Source: Clostridia bacterium
Lineage (GTDB): Bacteria > Bacillota > Clostridia > Oscillospirales > CAG-272
Direction: 5' to 3'
Assembly: GCA_017503285.1 (NCBI GenBank)
Contig: JAFVTH010000015.1
Span: 1-57,645, forward strand
DNA length: 57,645 bases
Shown here: positions 19,520-57,645 of the stretch, piece by piece
Layout: every line of letters starts with the position of its first letter
How positions within the stretch are numbered: position 1 is the first letter of the stretch
The notes under the pieces: generated by a model
Databases searched by the model: none
Told to the model about the DNA's origin: nothing
Seen by the model: the letters and a program-made list of their open reading frames with translations, nothing else
Position numbers and translations under genes: made by a program

Positions 19520-19950
19520 AGAGGGAGACGTACTTTTGCGCTGCAAAAGCAAGCGGGAAGGCTCCTGACGGAGCTATTTCTGCCGAGCCTTTTCCTTGCA
19601 ACCCGTGAACCCCAAAACTCATACTTCGTTTTGAGGACCCCTTGGCGCTGACAACGGCTTTCGTCAGAAATGCGAACCCGATTTTCTCAATTAAGCGAGT
19701 CGAGCAAGCAAATTTTCGTTAAGCAAGAAGCTATCGAAAATTTGTACGGGAAGATGCCTTGCCAAACAAGCTTCCGACACGTGACCCTACTCTCGTGAAC
19801 GAGAGCAAGCGGGAAGGTTCACTTCGTGAACTATTTTCGTCTAGCCTCTTGTGAGCAAGCTCCCGTCGGCTTTAGCCGAAAATGCGAATCCGATTCAAAA
19901 TGCGATTGCATTTTGAAGATGGGTCGATGAGCGTACGGAAGTCACAACAA
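19520..19950. repeat. Hairpin repeat zone downstream of tRNA-Glu
   Basis: No gene is seen between 19434 and 19989. Two related units occur, near 19532-19590 and 19790-19850. Each has a hairpin, then CAAGCGGGAAGG, then a second hairpin and TATTT. Hairpin sequences differ but keep pairing: CTTTTGC/GCAAAAG versus CTCTCG/CGAGAG for the first, GGCTCC/GGAGC versus GGTTCAC/GTGAAC for the second. A copy of the CCCC hairpin module lies at 19607-19641. Near 19890-19920 CAAAATGC/GCATTTTG forms another hairpin. Confidence 0.7.
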
Positions 19951-19958
19951 AACGAAAA

Positions 19959-19980
19959 AAGCACTCCATTTGGAGTGCTT
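19959..19980 (-). terminator. Terminator of the tRNA-Met-tRNA-Glu unit
   Basis: AAGCACTCCA and TGGAGTGCTT pair with a two-base loop, with A- and T-runs on either side, immediately past the tRNA-Glu CCA end on the minus strand. Confidence 0.85.
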
Positions 19981-19989
19981 TCATTTTGT

Positions 19990-20064
19990 TGGTGACCCGT
20001 ACGGGAATCGAACCCATGTTACAGCCGTGAAAGGGCCGTGTCTTAACCGCTTGACCAACGGGCC
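19990..20064 (-). tRNA. tRNA-Glu (UUC)
   Basis: 75 nt including an encoded CCA. Acceptor GGCCCGT pairs with ACGGGTC (one G-U), the anticodon loop is CTTTCAC giving anticodon TTC, and the T-loop is GTTCGATTC. It is co-transcribed with tRNA-Met from the strong promoter at 20176-20204. Its 3' end is copied at 17350-17366. Confidence 0.95.
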
Positions 20065-52550: not shown

Positions 52551-52579
52551 TTGACAAACCATTTTCTCTTTGCTATAAT
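52551..52579 (+). promoter_or_regulatory. Consensus promoter driving the tRNA-Pro locus
   Basis: TTGACA (52551-52556), 17 bases, TATAAT (52574-52579). The first thing downstream is a truncated tRNA-Pro 5' end; the intact tRNA begins 168 bases after the -10. Confidence 0.9.
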
Positions 52580-52608
52580 AGTAGGGCATTGAACGAAAAC
52601 ATGCATTT

Positions 52609-52626
52609 CGAGATGTAGCGCAGTTG
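52609..52626 (+). repeat. Truncated tRNA-Pro 5' end
   Basis: CGAGATGTAGCGCAGTTG is identical to the first 18 bases of the intact tRNA at 52748-52765, then is interrupted by a hairpin element. It sits where the tRNA would be expected relative to its promoter. Confidence 0.85.
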
Positions 52627-52683
52627 TAATGAGTTTCCAAGAACACGAGCCACAAGCGATGTGTGATTGGCTAAAACGAATTA
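52627..52683. repeat. 57-bp hairpin element, copy 1
   Basis: TAAT...GTTT / AAAAC...ATTA outer arms and CCAAGAACAC / GTGTGATTGG inner arms. Further copies lie at 52897-52953 and 53093-53151. In the third copy the inner arms are GCAC/GTGC and the outer arms TAAGT/ACTTA, so pairing is kept while sequence changes. Confidence 0.75.
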
Positions 52684-52747
52684 TCCAGCGATCCTTTTGG
52701 CGAGTCGGAGTAGCGCCTTTTCTAAATTGAGAAAACCAAATAAAAAC

Positions 52748-52823
52748 CGAGATGTAGCGCAGTTGGTAGCGCGCATGGTTTGGGACCATGATGCCGTAGG
52801 TTCGAATCCTATCATCTCGACCA
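52748..52823 (+). tRNA. tRNA-Pro (UGG)
   Basis: 76 nt with encoded CCA. Acceptor CGAGATG pairs with CATCTCG, the loop TTTGGGA gives anticodon TGG, and the T-loop is GTTCGAATC. It is preceded by a truncated 5' copy and followed by three copies of its 3' end (52977-52994, 53285-53301, 55459-55476). Confidence 0.96.
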
Positions 52824-52824
52824 T

Positions 52825-52858
52825 AAAAACGACTTACTCATTTGAGTAGGTCGTTTTT
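52825..52858 (+). terminator. tRNA-Pro terminator
   Basis: AAAAACGAC...TACTC pairs with GAGTA...GTCGTTTTT. The copy at 52995-53030 has the same frame but a different stem (CGG..TACCC / GGGTA..CCG). Confidence 0.85.
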
Positions 52859-52890
52859 ATTTTTGAAATAATGGAAGGATGAGAACCGAG

Positions 52891-52994
52891 GTTCGATAAT
52901 GAGTTTCCAAGAACACGAGCCACAGGCAAAGTGCGATTGGCTAAAACGAATTATGCAATGAGCATAGCGAATTGTAATCCTATCATCTCGACCA
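52891..52994 (+). repeat. tRNA-Pro T-arm copy split by the 57-bp hairpin element
   Basis: GTTCGA (52891-52896) is followed by hairpin element copy 2 (52897-52953), a TATGC/GCATA hairpin, and then ATCCTATCATCTCGACCA (52977-52994), the tRNA-Pro 3' end. Removing the insert restores a T-arm and acceptor end. Confidence 0.75.
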
Positions 52995-53092
52995 TAAAAA
53001 CGGTGTACCCTTTGGGGTATGCCGTTTTTATTTTTGCGTATGACTGGTGCGCACCTTCCTTTTGCGTTAGCAAAATCAGGTTCGCCTAGCGA
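52989..53092 (+). repeat. 104-bp direct repeat, left copy
   Basis: Identical to 55290-55393. It starts at CGACCA of the tRNA-Pro 3' end, contains the terminator-like hairpin CGGTGTACCC / GGGTATGCCG and a TTTTGC/GCAAAA hairpin, and ends CCTAGCGA. The pair brackets the GH63/37-like gene. Confidence 0.92.
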
Positions 53093-53301
53093 TAAGTGAC
53101 ACTCCAAGAGCACGAGCCTAAAGCGAAGTGCGATTGGCTAAGTGGAACTTATGCACGGGAGCGTAGCGAGTCGCAGTGAAGTCGCATAGGGGTTCCCCGA
53201 AGCGAAGTATGAGCTTTGGGGGTTCGCGTGATAGCTAGCACATCAGAGGCTGCGAAGTGTTACGAGCAACTAAGTTGCGATGCTTCCTATCATCTCGACC
53301 A
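53093..53301. repeat. Composite hairpin block ending in a tRNA-Pro 3' copy
   Basis: It holds hairpin element copy 3 (53093-53151), a reverse-orientation CCCC hairpin module (53189-53225), CACATCAGAGGCTGCG (also at 55414-55429), a GCAAC/GTTGC hairpin (GCAAT/ATTGC in the other copy), and TCCTATCATCTCGACCA (53285-53301). No gene. Confidence 0.75.
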
Positions 53302-53303
53302 CC

Positions 53304-53350
53304 TATGACTAAGTTGAACACACGGGGTTATAAACCCAAACTTAGTCATA
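53304..53350. repeat. Inverted repeat after the tRNA-Pro 3' copy
   Basis: Perfect 12-base arms TATGACTAAGTT / AACTTAGTCATA around a GGGTT/AACCC inner hairpin. A comparable but unrelated inverted repeat (TCTCTAATTCG / CGAATTGGAGA) occupies the same place at 55481-55523. Confidence 0.7.
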
Positions 53351-53363
53351 CTTTGTATAATAC

Positions 53364-53392
53364 AAGGGATTACTCATTATCGAGTAGTCCCT
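53364..53392 (+). terminator. Terminator-like hairpin before the glycosidase gene
   Basis: AAGGGATTACTC and GAGTAGTCCCTT pair around ATTATC, followed by TTG and T-rich sequence. It shares TACTC/GAGTA with the tRNA-Pro terminator. Confidence 0.75.
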
Positions 53393-53415
53393 TTTGTTTT
53401 TCAATAATATAAACC

Positions 53416-53444
53416 TTGATTTTGCACTGATAATATTGTATAAT
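53416..53444 (+). promoter_or_regulatory. Promoter of the GH63/37-like gene
   Basis: TTGATT (53416-53421), 17 bases, TATAAT (53439-53444); AAGGAG before the ATG. Confidence 0.7.
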
Positions 53445-53480
53445 TTGGTTATACGATACCGAATTTAACAAGGAGTTTAT

Positions 53481-54953
53481 ATGAGTAATAGATATATATT
53501 TAAAAAAGACAAGCTCCCGAGACCGATTATTGAAGGGCGTAATGAATTTATAAAATTATACTATAATGCTTGGGAACTTGCGTTTAAGAATATTGAATAT
53601 ATTGACCGCGATGGGTGGAAGGATATTTTAACCTGTATGCCCGGTGTAGGAATTATGTGGCAATGGGATTCCTGCGTTATGACATTTATCACTAATTATT
53701 CAAACGGTACGCTTAGTGCGTTTAATAATCTTGATAATTTATATATGCTCAGGCGTGAGGACGGCTTTATGTCTATGGCGTACAATCTTGATGATGGTAT
53801 GCCCACTTACGGTGAAAGAATAAACCCACCTCTTATGGCTTGGGCAGAGTGGGAGCATTATTTGATTTCAGGAGATTGTTCTCGCTTCGAAAAGGCACTT
53901 CCTGCACTTGAGGGGATTTATAATTTTATCGAGAAAAACAGAAAAAGAGAAAGTTGTGGTTTATACTATTTCGAGGACACAGGTTCAAGCGGAATGGATA
54001 ATTCGCCTGTCAGTGGATACGGAGCTAAACATCTTGACGGAAGCGACACTTGTTTTGTTGATTTATCATGTCAGCAGGCACTTAGCGCACTTTGTATTTC
54101 AAAAATTTGTGATAAGCTTTCTTTAAATGATAAAGCAACTTTCTACAAAAATGAACATTCAAGAATTTGTAATTTGATAAATAAATATCATTACAGTGAA
54201 AGAGTGGGTTGGTATTTCAATTTTTTTGCCCGTAATTGGAGCGATGAAAGAGTTAAATTTATCAATTCTAAAACCGCAGCAGGTTTTTGGCCTCTTGTGG
54301 CAGAGGTAGCAAATGGTGAACGCTTGCGTTCTGTTGTTTCCCATATGATGAACGAAAATGAATTTTATACTAAAATTCCATTCGCTACTCTATCCAAGGA
54401 TGACCCTAACTACGACTCAAACGGTGGATACTGGCTTGGTGGTGTTTGGGCACCTACAAATCTTTGTGCAATAAAGGGGCTTTCTAAAAACGGATATAAG
54501 GAATTTGCACGTGAGGCCTCAATTAAATATTTAGAGGGAATGTGCAAGGTGTCAGATGACAGTGCCTTCGGTAGCATTTGGGAGGCATATGCTCCTGATT
54601 TTTACAGACCCGCAACAACGGAATACAATACACTGTCCCGTGCGGAATTTGTTGGTTGGAGTGGAATTGCACCTATAACCTTGCTTATTGAAAATATTAT
54701 CGGTTTAGAATTTAACGCACAAGAAAATTTAGTTACCTTTAATCTAAATGAACGTGGCAAATGTGGAATTGAAAATATGATTTTTAATTCTAATAATATA
54801 AGTGTTGTTTGCACAGAATACGTACCGTTTAAGGATAAAACCATAATAGAGGTTGAAGCCGAAAAACCGTTTAAATTAAAGGTGGTAACAAAATATCTTT
54901 GGTACCCTAAGGAATTTGACATACCACAAGGAAAAACCGTATTAAAAATATAA
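53481..54953 (+). CDS. GH63/GH37-like inverting glycosidase (MGH1-type)
   Basis: 490 residues, no signal peptide. It reads as an (alpha/alpha)6-barrel: MWQWDSCVMTF (about residues 59-69) corresponds to the WDS segment of GH63 and trehalases, SNGGYWLGGVWAPTNLCAIKGL to the YWxGPxW block, WEAYAPDF carries the likely base Glu, and FVGWSGIAPITLLIENIIGL is the family's closing helix. A short beta-tail follows. The substrate could be an alpha-mannoside or another alpha-glucoside. Codon use looks more A/T-rich than in the operons upstream. It is bracketed by 104-bp direct repeats downstream of tRNA-Pro, suggesting acquired cargo. It has its own promoter and terminator. Confidence 0.8.
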   Translation: MSNRYIFKKDKLPRPIIEGRNEFIKLYYNAWELAFKNIEYIDRDGWKDILTCMPGVGIMWQWDSCVMTFITNYSNGTLSAFNNLDNLYMLRREDGFMSMAYNLDDGMPTYGERINPPLMAWAEWEHYLISGDCSRFEKALPALEGIYNFIEKNRKRESCGLYYFEDTGSSGMDNSPVSGYGAKHLDGSDTCFVDLSCQQALSALCISKICDKLSLNDKATFYKNEHSRICNLINKYHYSERVGWYFNFFARNWSDERVKFINSKTAAGFWPLVAEVANGERLRSVVSHMMNENEFYTKIPFATLSKDDPNYDSNGGYWLGGVWAPTNLCAIKGLSKNGYKEFAREASIKYLEGMCKVSDDSAFGSIWEAYAPDFYRPATTEYNTLSRAEFVGWSGIAPITLLIENIIGLEFNAQENLVTFNLNERGKCGIENMIFNSNNISVVCTEYVPFKDKTIIEVEAEKPFKLKVVTKYLWYPKEFDIPQGKTVLKI

Positions 54954-55024
54954 CTTTTTATATAATTAAACATTCTATAACAACTTTTCAATTGAAGCTT
55001 TCGTATTTTCAATATTGTTTTGCA

Positions 55025-55058
55025 AAAAGACCTGATGAAATTCCTCATCAGGTCTTTT
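55025..55058 (+). terminator. Terminator after the GH63/37-like gene
   Basis: AAAAGACCTGATGA and TCATCAGGTCTTTT pair around AATTCC. Between 54954 and 55289 nothing else is recognised; 55060-55289 is A/T-rich with no supported gene and ends in a unique stretch joined to the 104-bp repeat. Confidence 0.85.
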
Positions 55059-55289
55059 GGTCTTATGCAGAACATACTTTTGCTCTCTTGAAATCTATGT
55101 TTTACACTCTTAAAACTCTTATTTTGGGAAAATCCCAAATTTCAAAAAGTACCGTTTTCGATGTCATTTTAAAATATAATTTTACATTTTTCTCAAAATT
55201 TTTGCCACACAAAAAAGTCCTAAAACTCCTTTTGCCATAAGGGTTTATCGCACTTTTTCATAGGGTGTTCAACTGGGGTTGGCTCACTC

Positions 55290-55393
55290 CGACCATAAAA
55301 ACGGTGTACCCTTTGGGGTATGCCGTTTTTATTTTTGCGTATGACTGGTGCGCACCTTCCTTTTGCGTTAGCAAAATCAGGTTCGCCTAGCGA
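55290..55393 (+). repeat. 104-bp direct repeat, right copy
   Basis: Identical to 52989-53092. Here only CGACCA of the tRNA-Pro end is present at its left edge, and the sequence before it is unrelated to the tRNA. Confidence 0.92.
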
Positions 55394-55458
55394 GCAAATC
55401 CGAGAGGTGCTTGCACATCAGAGGCTGCGAAGTGTTACGAGCAATTTATTGCGAAGTC

Positions 55459-55476
55459 ATCCTATCATCTCGACCA
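55459..55476 (+). repeat. tRNA-Pro 3' end copy
   Basis: ATCCTATCATCTCGACCA is identical to the last 18 bases of tRNA-Pro. It precedes an inverted repeat (55481-55523) and the GH2 gene, in the same order as upstream of the GH63/37-like gene. Confidence 0.88.
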
Positions 55477-55526
55477 CGCGTCTCTAATTCGAACCACCGT
55501 GATTATGATGCCGAATTGGAGATTTG

Positions 55527-55559
55527 AAAAAAGACTACTCAAATTGAGTAGTCTTTTTT
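55527..55559 (+). terminator. Terminator-like hairpin before the GH2 gene
   Basis: AAAAAAGACTACTCAA and TTGAGTAGTCTTTTTT pair with a one-base centre. Same position and similar stem to 53364-53392. Confidence 0.8.
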
Positions 55560-55585
55560 CGTTTCTTAGATTTATAAATACAATG

Positions 55586-55614
55586 TTGAAATTTTTTTGT
55601 AAGTATGATATTAT
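55586..55614 (+). promoter_or_regulatory. Promoter of the GH2 gene
   Basis: TTGAAA (55586-55591), 17 bases, TATTAT (55609-55614). Confidence 0.6.
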
Positions 55615-55657
55615 AATTTTGTTTAAGAAATCACTACCATTGATAAAGGGGTATGAA

Positions 55658-57645
55658 ATGATACAATCTCTTAACGGAATTTGGGATTACAGAATTGGGA
55701 AGGGTGCTTGGCTGAAAAAGCAAATACCCTTTTCTGAGCTTTGTGTTGGTCATTCAGAATGTAGAAAATATTTTGACTTAGAGCATTTTGATGACACAAT
55801 TCTTTTGAAATTTGACGGCATTACTTATAATGCAAGTGTATATTTGAACGATTATTATTTGGGCAAAATGCTCCCTTACTGTGAATATACCTTTGACGTA
55901 ACCAAAATCGTTCAAGATAAGAGCAACTGTCTTTTTGTTGAAATAGAAGATATAGATGCAAGCTTTGGACCTAGCGAGGGTTGGGAAAATTATGGCGGTA
56001 TTATAAGAGATGTATCTATTCATTACAAAAAAGCCTTTTACATAAATGATGTTTTTTTCGCACACTCGCTTATAAATGATTATAAGGATGCTGAATACTC
56101 TATTACGGTTTCATCCTCTTTGGATAAATATCGTGTAACACTATCATTAGATGAGGAAATTATAGATACCTATACCGCTAACAAAGTCAACATAAGAACT
56201 ATCAAAAATATTAAGCTGTGGTCGCCTGAAAGCCCTGTTTTATACACCTTAGAGGTTGAGCTTTTGGAAAACGAAAATGTGGTTGACACATATAAAACAA
56301 GGGTCGGTTTTCGTGAATTTAAATGTAATAAAAATCATTTCATGCTAAACGGACAAGACATTTTTATAAAAGGCGTTTGCAAGCACGAAATGTATGGCAA
56401 GAATAGCGGACACACAGTTGCCTACGATGATATTTACAATGACCTAAAAATGATTAAGGACTCCGGTTGCAATTTTGTACGCTTGGTTCATTATCCGCAT
56501 AATAAGGTAACTCTTGACATAGCTGATGAGTTAGGACTTTTATGCTGTGAGGAGCCCGGAATGTGGCAAGCGGATGTTACAGATTCACAATTAACAAGTG
56601 AGTGTCTTGAGGTTTTAAAAAGAACGATTTTACGCGACAGAAATCATCCAAGCATCGTTTTTTGGTTGGCCTTTAACGAATGTGATTTTGACGAGGCTTT
56701 CTTAAAAAGTGCCGTGCAAATTTGCCGTGAAAATGACGGGACTCGTTTAATTTCCGGTGCAAATAATATGTCAAACGAGGATACGAAAAAATATTACAAT
56801 CTTTGCGGTCTTGATTTTTATACTACTCATCCGTATAGTGAAACCTTCGATATGGCAAGAAAAGCAAGCGAGGAGCTATGCGACAAGCCACTTATGTTTA
56901 CGGAATGGGGCGGATACTATGTTTATGACAATCCACATTTACTAAGCGATTTCTTAATGTCTATGTACGAGCTTTACAAAAACAATGCACTTGCCGGAAC
57001 CTGCCTTTGGTATTGGGCAGAAATCAACGACTATAATCGTGGTGGTGCTGCATGTGTTGACGGCACTTTAAAGGAAGCTCTTGTAGACTTTGACAGGAAG
57101 CCAAATTTAATTTATGATGCTTTTTGTCGCTCACTCAAAAAAATGGACAAGAACAGTACCCCGTACGATAGCTACGAAGCTATTGTTCTTAACAAGCTTT
57201 CAAAAGCACCTTTAAAATGCACGGATAAGCCAAGCTATGAAACGCTTTTGTCTATTGCGCGTATGCCGCTTAAAACAAGGCTTGCAAAAACAAGAAAAAA
57301 GAAAATAACCATTGGTCCCATATTGCAGAACGAGGAAATTTCGGGCATTTCAATAATCCCACATTTAGTAACGGAAAAGCCTCTTGTGTTTAAATGCAAC
57401 GATTCAACCGACTGTATTTCCATATTGGGAATGACATCATTAAATTACGGTTATCCGATTTTAGGAGAATATGGCGAGGATGTGGCGCAAATCTCAATCC
57501 AATATAAAGACGGAAAAGTGCAAAATTATATTGCCAAAAACGGACTTGATGTTACAATCGCATATACCTCTGTCGGTTCTTCAAGAATCAATCCGGTAGC
57601 CGAAAACGCAAAAAGAGCTTTAATCTTTAGTTATGACAAAAATTT
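55658..57645 (+). CDS. GH2 family beta-glycosidase (partial, runs off the window)
   Basis: At least 662 residues, open to the window end, so the C-terminus is missing. ATG 55658 follows AAAGGGG; an overlapping ATG at 55653 stops at once. An N-terminal sugar-binding beta-domain (starting MIQSLNGIWDYRIG) and an immunoglobulin-like domain lead into the TIM barrel: NGQDIFIKGVCKHEMYG, then the acid/base Glu in PSIVFWLAFNEC and the nucleophile Glu in KPLMFTEWGGYY. GH2 includes beta-galactosidases, beta-glucuronidases and beta-mannosidases; I cannot choose among them. No signal peptide. Second cargo gene of the tRNA-Pro zone. Confidence 0.9.
   Translation, partial: MIQSLNGIWDYRIGKGAWLKKQIPFSELCVGHSECRKYFDLEHFDDTILLKFDGITYNASVYLNDYYLGKMLPYCEYTFDVTKIVQDKSNCLFVEIEDIDASFGPSEGWENYGGIIRDVSIHYKKAFYINDVFFAHSLINDYKDAEYSITVSSSLDKYRVTLSLDEEIIDTYTANKVNIRTIKNIKLWSPESPVLYTLEVELLENENVVDTYKTRVGFREFKCNKNHFMLNGQDIFIKGVCKHEMYGKNSGHTVAYDDIYNDLKMIKDSGCNFVRLVHYPHNKVTLDIADELGLLCCEEPGMWQADVTDSQLTSECLEVLKRTILRDRNHPSIVFWLAFNECDFDEAFLKSAVQICRENDGTRLISGANNMSNEDTKKYYNLCGLDFYTTHPYSETFDMARKASEELCDKPLMFTEWGGYYVYDNPHLLSDFLMSMYELYKNNALAGTCLWYWAEINDYNRGGAACVDGTLKEALVDFDRKPNLIYDAFCRSLKKMDKNSTPYDSYEAIVLNKLSKAPLKCTDKPSYETLLSIARMPLKTRLAKTRKKKITIGPILQNEEISGISIIPHLVTEKPLVFKCNDSTDCISILGMTSLNYGYPILGEYGEDVAQISIQYKDGKVQNYIAKNGLDVTIAYTSVGSSRINPVAENAKRALIFSYDKN

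Follow-up and report, generated by a model that had tools for sequence, protein, structure and literature searches.

The window analysed here, a 57,645-nt stretch of DNA that is the whole of contig C16 (JAFVTH010000015.1) of the 1.50-Mb assembly of an uncultured gut Clostridia bacterium (GCA_017503285.1; Oscillospirales, CAG-272; 74.7% complete), ends in an array of small gene cassettes and short structured modules behind a tRNA-Pro gene. We read this locus as a stack of non-autonomous gene cassettes that were inserted site-specifically behind tRNA-Pro, and we put the probability of this reading at roughly two in three. The intact tRNA-Pro(TGG) gene occupies positions 52748–52823 on the plus strand, like all features of the array, and its 3′ end is the insertion site. 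The array runs up to the contig end at 57645 and can be traced no further because the contig stops there. For comparison we used a set of 29 genomes of the same genus, with the genome of the window (G000) counted in and one genome per species, and a family sample of 146 genomes from 71 genera.

The 15-nt tail of the tRNA, CTATCATCTCGACCA, matched exactly at 52809 within the gene and again at 52980, 53287 and 55462, while the chance expectation averaged 0.86 even with up to three mismatches allowed; outside the tRNA-Pro locus, the 1.50-Mb assembly held no match with up to one mismatch. Read from the sequence, the copies measure 19 nt (52976–52994), 17 nt (53285–53301) and 18 nt (55459–55476). 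The genome has 25 tRNAs, and 6 of them (Pro, Arg-CCG, Trp and, going by our own reading of the anticodon, one each of Gln, Ser and Leu) are followed within 500 nt downstream by a copy of 18–20 nt of their own tail, compared with a longest match of 10 nt among 600 mismatched pairs of tail and downstream sequence. Each copy at tRNA-Pro closes a module: P1 (52824–52994) consists of a terminator, hairpins and the 19-nt copy, P2 (52995–53301) of a terminator, nested hairpin elements and the 17-nt copy, and P2′ (55296–55476) of a terminator, hairpins and the 18-nt copy. P2′ has 104 exact nucleotides in common with P2, an exact repeat that places 52989–53092 against 55290–55393.

Gene cassette 1 (GE1, 1994 bp, 53302–55295) adjoins P2 at a CGACCA that forms its left junction (53296–53301). 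It begins with a left-end hairpin, GACTAAGTT-GAAC...AACTTAGTC (53304–53351), continues with a terminator-like hairpin (53364–53393), a promoter-like site (53416–53444; 10/12 consensus positions) and a gene for a 490-aa glycosidase of the MGH1-like/GH63 clan (53481–54953), and closes with a conserved right-end arm of type R1 (55131–55295) terminating in GTTCAACTGGGGTTGGCTCACTC-CGACCA (CGACCA at 55290–55295). Gene cassette 2 (GE2, 55477–57645), incomplete at the contig end, shows a hairpin at about 55481–55523, a terminator (55525–55561), a promoter-like site (55586–55614) and a GH2 glycosidase gene whose 3′ end is missing (55658–57643); from the CGACCA at 55471 onwards it is 98.1% identical to DNA of G018. 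Promoter-like sites are common in this AT-rich stretch (18 found versus 10.4 in shuffles). A sequence-only reading of this DNA had described three extra copies of the tRNA-Pro 3′ end, the last two followed by a hairpin, a terminator, a promoter and a glycosidase gene; copies and order were both confirmed, and the copies proved confined to the locus. Its proposal of serial acquisition at the tRNA end stood as far as an ordered array and repeated accretion are concerned, whereas the 17–19 nt tail copies could not be upheld as scars of gene acquisition. They end the short gene-free modules P1, P2 and P2′ rather than bordering the cassettes, and CGACCA is all that they have in common with the cassette right border.

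The borders of the cassettes emerged from comparison between species. Gene cassettes with both ends seen measured about 1.4–5 kb, carried no integrase and had the same ends around differing cargo: at the left end CGACCA is followed by a hairpin, and at the right end a conserved arm terminates in CGACCA. GE2 matched its counterpart in G018 over 2177 bp, and the homology began exactly at CGACCA; the left flanks were unrelated, being the tail of P2′ in the window and the right end of another cassette in G018. A cassette with a 704-aa gene in G006 and G017 (94.0% over 2581 bp) ended at CGACCA with unlike sequences beyond, and the match between G025 and G026 (84.3%) began at CGACCA, that between G006 and G011 (97.6%) one base before it, and that between G003 and G013 (98.3%) inside a tRNA tail common to both. 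The left-end hairpins fell into two main sequence types. A spaced motif, CGACCA-N11-13-TYGAAC, was matched 38 times across 20 of the 29 genus genomes, and its backward control 37 times (our sums); 27 of the 38, in 19 genomes, carried a conserved hairpin of either type (counted by eye). A left end is thus recognised by the conserved hairpin sequence alone; the bare motif is no evidence of one. For 25 of these 27 left ends the flanks were read: three follow tRNA-Pro(TGG), three tRNA-Pro(CGG) and two a partial tRNA-Pro(CGG), so that both tRNAs are in use, 15 follow a module tail, and two directly follow the right end of another cassette with no tail copy between.

The right ends formed two related types (11 R1 and 7 R2 sequences) that accompany unrelated cargo and have an arm upstream of GTTCRA-17 nt-CGACCA in common. 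As these sequences were chosen by a pattern over the last ~30 nt, that part is alike by construction and only the upstream arm (some 45 nt) counts as evidence; one R1 end (G001) aligned poorly there. At E values up to 0.01 the right end was matched in 23 of the 29 genus genomes, some of the matches being short. In the family sample eight genomes were matched, five of them outside the genus and only over 26–37 bases (E 8e-5 to 7e-4).

Comparison of the locus across the genus covered 21 rows, 19 of them at tRNA-Pro. What precedes the first cassette varied from species to species: the cassette abuts tRNA-Pro in G022, G015 and G026, and follows P1 in G012, P2 in G002, P2-P1 in G003, P1-P2 in G000, a single P3 in G010 and two P3 in G017. 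G023 and G019 had neither modules nor cassettes in the stretch examined, and G001 ran off its contig. Module number, order and content differ between genomes of one genus, in keeping with the sequence-only reading. We used the Xer locus as a yardstick of divergence; it was 69–76% identical between species pairs that share cassettes (longest match), with 73.5% for G000 against G018, where another 259 bp matched at 82%. The genes upstream of tRNA-Pro were 65–67% identical between G000 and both G018 and G002. Since the cassettes are 94–98% identical against this background, recent movement as units is implied. Cassettes have therefore been transferred between species and, judged by these identities, seem to have moved recently and as units. 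Accretion of cassettes at the tRNA-Pro end is supported, and the locus is likely a hotspot for gene trading.

To describe the cargo we scanned 20 array proteins, taken from cassettes or their neighbours. Carbohydrate-active genes were frequent without being the sole cargo: GH63/MGH1-like, GH2, two GH43, melibiase and arabinofuranosidase (ArfA) proteins were accompanied by DUF6259, YjbR, HTH + IrrE-like, WYL + PD-(D/E)XK and TrkH, and further by DUF2971, BspA-type repeats and type I restriction-modification subunits. None of the 20 belonged to an integrase or transfer family. Relatives of the GH63-like protein outside the genus came from nine loci in metagenome-assembled genomes labelled Clostridia, Clostridiales, Lachnospiraceae or Ruminococcus, several with names referring to the ungulate gut. 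At these nine loci ARAGORN found no tRNA and pattern searches found no cassette ends, suggesting that the ends do not belong to the GH63-like gene itself. Searches of Pfam, NCBIfam and the PDB returned nothing for a 708-aa protein (L220, 2731–4854) and a 643-aa protein (L134, 3072–5000), which are both encoded in or beside cassettes and whose lengths are those of the frames scanned.

How such a stack might arise can be outlined as follows. Both cassette ends, the left hairpin after CGACCA and the right arm ending in CGACCA, would be recognised whatever the cargo by a recombinase acting in trans. We infer an enzyme of the tyrosine type, because the target is a tRNA 3′ end. A putative circular cassette may then recombine with CGACCA at the tRNA-Pro end, at a tail copy or at the border of a resident cassette, and serial insertion would pile up cassettes in series. 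By multiplying the tRNA tail, the short modules could provide extra landing sites.

Several results weigh against this reading. The array lacks an integrase, as the sequence-only reading had noted; as for its idea of an enzyme acting from elsewhere, none of the searches made tied a recombinase to the ends of the cassettes. Proteins with PF00589 occurred in 27 of the 29 genus genomes, and the only one in the genome of the window is Xer-like and scores below the cut-offs for XerC, XerD and integron integrases. An integrase could have been missed because the assembly is only 74.7% complete. Forty of the regions around integrases of the genus gave merely three matches of 24–28 nt to cassette ends or modules (E 0.002–0.008). 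Serine recombinases were present in 21 of the 29 genomes and absent from the cassette-bearing G008 (96% complete) and G018 (93%). Neither the right end, searched by exact 20-mer, nor two left-end patterns occurred in viral contigs, and the cassette ends had no match in the plasmid and phage records searched. The core common to the borders is only about 6 bp. The idea that CGACCA-N11-13-TYGAAC forms a mirror-symmetric attachment site was dropped for lack of enrichment (38 versus 37); the bare motif is no commoner than the backward control, so coincidence may account for its mirror-like spacing relative to the T-loop of the tRNA. Among the 40 integrase regions, several are located at tRNA-Ser or at other tRNAs. 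We also considered an integrase next to tRNA-Pro(GGG) in G008 and set it aside, as the tail of that tRNA is not CGACCA.

Alternatively, the cassettes might be cis-mobilizable elements (CIMEs), decayed relics of full integrative elements that once bore an integrase and accreted at tRNA-Pro, and would then no longer move as units. CIMEs are described in the pertinent sections of PMC5704250 as integrase-less, with both attachment sites kept and with tandem accretion at, for example, a tRNA 3′ end, so that formation and accretion of this kind are an established route. The locus resembles them in having both ends kept and in the absence of integrase and transfer families among the scanned proteins, and the right arms of the cassettes look like attachment-site arms. 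On the other hand, both ends were kept in a compact layout repeated across unrelated cargo, and 94–98% identity between species with an Xer locus at 69–76% speaks for recent unit movement. The same sections describe CIMEs as decayed integrative and conjugative elements (ICEs) or integrative and mobilizable elements (IMEs), unlike the compact units recurring between species here. An integrase-bearing element with cassette ends, as would mobilise a CIME in cis, was not found around the 40 integrase regions. We regard the relic explanation as possible at best, holding a clear minority of the probability.

The modules invite a further interpretation. Those of the window contain no gene; each combines a terminator with hairpins and closes with a 17–19 nt copy of the host tRNA tail. 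Three classes of module were seen. P1 is known from Pro, where it is the sole module in G012 and comes second to P2 in G003, and from Arg; one version of P1 lies upstream, between promoter and tRNA, and duplicates the tRNA 5′ end. To the eye, the P2 class is similar to elements that follow Gln, Tyr, Ser and other tRNAs, and P3 was seen at Pro, Trp and Leu. An alignment of six P3 sequences (four of them close tRNA-Pro relatives) gave 30 predicted pairs, of which 13 varied on both sides, together with a closing helix that follows the T-arm of the host tRNA. A model built for P3 found matches in 54 of the 146 family genomes and 34 of the 71 genera. Among 30 P3 loci examined (L333–L362), 19 had a tRNA upstream, mostly 39–59 nt away (one at 293 nt, one abutting), and one of the 19 is a training sequence of the model. 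Seventeen of these 19 ended in at least 13 nt of the tail of their own tRNA, compared with 0 of 334 mismatched pairs, and the other two in 8–9 nt; between the left arm and the reverse complement of the host tRNA tail a mean of 10.4 nt matched, versus 6.1. The other 11 loci had no tRNA upstream in the stretch examined, some lying near a contig edge and some being dispersed copies. In G116, which belongs to another genus (C15; L363, 124–3160), tRNA-Ser(CGA) is followed by two P3 that enclose some 2.6 kb; this stretch holds two genes which, judged by eye, resemble glycosyltransferase genes, and because of this one case the layout of modules and cassettes may extend beyond tRNA-Pro.

One could propose a gene-capture system, separate from integrons, with the tRNA 3′ end as its primary attachment site. 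The tail-copying modules would serve as folded attachment sites that increase the number of landing places, and promoter-bearing cassettes would be inserted by a resident recombinase, perhaps the single Xer-like enzyme. The module arm complementary to the host tRNA T-arm would then be part of the site, and the presence of P3 behind many tRNAs across the family would point to a single widespread system. We consider this extended proposal doubtful. Folding alone did not distinguish all modules from shuffles: z-scores against mononucleotide shuffles were −1.4 for a Leu P3, −1.5 for the P1 behind tRNA-Pro, whose fold by itself is weak, −3.0 for P2 and −6.2 for a Gln element. An Rfam scan of 12 loci returned no module at the gathering score, and only tRNA genes and one Gut-1 match, which lies away from the module (L041, 141–210), scored above it. 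That the modules are plain tRNA mimics is unlikely, because the P3 fold pairs the 3′ strand of the T-stem with the left arm and leaves the acceptor strand and CCA unpaired. An RNA-templated (primer-like) origin is disfavoured as well, since one tRNA-Leu is followed by a duplication that takes in the tail and also the terminator beyond it, which points to duplication at the DNA level. Dispersed P3 cores without a tRNA reached 27 matches in one genome (G113), and P1-type modules at tRNA-Arg(CCG) occur once downstream of the gene on C2 (L025, 60–430) and twice in tandem at the end of C29 (L024, 1–260).

The joint duplication of terminator and tail behind that tRNA-Leu also fits an explanation without any site-specific enzyme, in which homologous recombination between repeated tails, terminators and hairpin modules shuffles the genes. 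Long repeats are indeed at hand (104 nt exact), G017 carries near-identical tandem modules, and some cassette pairs have a whole left tail in common (G006/G017 and G003/G013). The left border of GE2, however, shares about 6 bp with G018, which is too short for ordinary homologous recombination, and at 2 of the 25 left ends the neighbour is the right end of another cassette. Homologous recombination as the sole cause therefore appears improbable to us.

Integron cassette arrays likewise string together small cassettes that have a conserved end, and the attC consensus has a GTT core. An ordinary integron with its integrase elsewhere would account for small arrayed gene cassettes with a conserved 3′ region and for many landing sites. 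The only tyrosine recombinase found in the genome of the window, the Xer-like protein, scored 87.7 against the integron integrase model, with a cut-off of 265, and no IntI was found in this assembly of 74.7% completeness. The junctions show CGACCA instead of an attC core, the primary site is a tRNA gene, and promoter-like sites lie inside both cassettes of the window, all unlike integrons, so that this explanation is very improbable. That the array is an artefact of assembling or binning a metagenome is scarcely credible: the genomes are fragmented and the array reaches a contig end, but left ends with conserved hairpins recur in 19 of the 29 separate genus genomes (by eye), several of them inside contigs.

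Site-specific cassette insertion behind tRNA-Pro, our preferred reading, has its closest relatives among additive flexible genomic islands, for which the portions of the reports consulted describe serial cassettes at tRNA genes, partial-tRNA repeats at the borders and variation between strains (Methylophilaceae, PMC10872708; Actinomarinales, PMC7771536; Alteromonas, PMC4119200). In the Methylophilaceae islands, according to the corresponding portion of PMC10872708, the border repeats are the last 20 nt of the tRNA. The present locus agrees with these descriptions in its insertion site at a tRNA 3′ end, its tRNA-end repeats and the presence or absence of cassettes between species. It departs from them in that the cassettes are tiny, lack an integrase, have cargo-independent ends with a 6-bp core, and leave the tail repeats to separate structured modules. 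Tycheposons are outlined in PMC10872708 as tRNA-bounded elements of 4–200 kb with a tyrosine recombinase; going by that outline, the cargo elements here are tRNA-bounded too, and differ in that no tyrosine recombinase was found in them. Unlike ICEs and IMEs, they showed no element-borne integrase, relaxase or mobilisation genes among the 20 proteins scanned. For small serial cassettes, the integron cassettes of Alteromonas covered in part of PMC4119200 offer a further comparison. The combination of tiny cassettes, cargo-independent ends, a 6-bp core and tail-copying modules was not found described in the open-access literature within the keywords tried. The finding belongs with tRNA-anchored cassette islands and CIME accretion, of which tiny common-end cassettes together with tail-copying modules look like a new variant. 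If this holds, tRNA-Pro would be a place where gut Clostridia exchange individual genes for carbohydrate-active enzymes, defence and transport in the form of small cassettes. Such cassettes would be easily overlooked, because they lack the integrase and transfer genes by which islands are usually recognised. The tail-copying modules provide a signature of sequence and structure that makes such loci searchable, and the common cassette ends make the missing recombinase directly testable.

Upstream of the array, the tRNA-Pro promoter (TTGACA-17-TATAAT, 52551–52579; 12/12 consensus positions) precedes an 18-nt truncated copy of the tRNA-Pro 5′ end (52609–52626), which together with a P1-type core fills 52609–52747 between promoter and intact tRNA. 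As the promoter lies upstream of both, the intact tRNA-Pro would be transcribed through the 5′ copy and the hairpin core. The tRNA-Arg(CCG) gene on C2 (L025) and the tRNA-Pro genes of several relatives have a similar layout. Nine tail-pattern matches in G009 were considered as further arrays and rejected, since eight of the nine, when read, proved to be a dispersed repeat TGTCATCTCGACCGAGC... and not tRNA tails; on C21 of that genome (L176, L177) this repeat reads TGTCATCTCGACCGAGC...GAGAGATCTA, and its start resembles the tRNA-Pro tail. Downstream of a tRNA-Glu gene on the minus strand, at about 19780–19990, lies a hairpin-rich sequence that is like the P2 class and matches the tail over just 9 nt. 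A dispersed 44-nt hairpin repeat, GGGGTTCCCC...GGGGGTTC, is nested in P2 (53183–53235 of the window), stands in tandem in places, and occurs on C9, C6, C21, C5 and C2.

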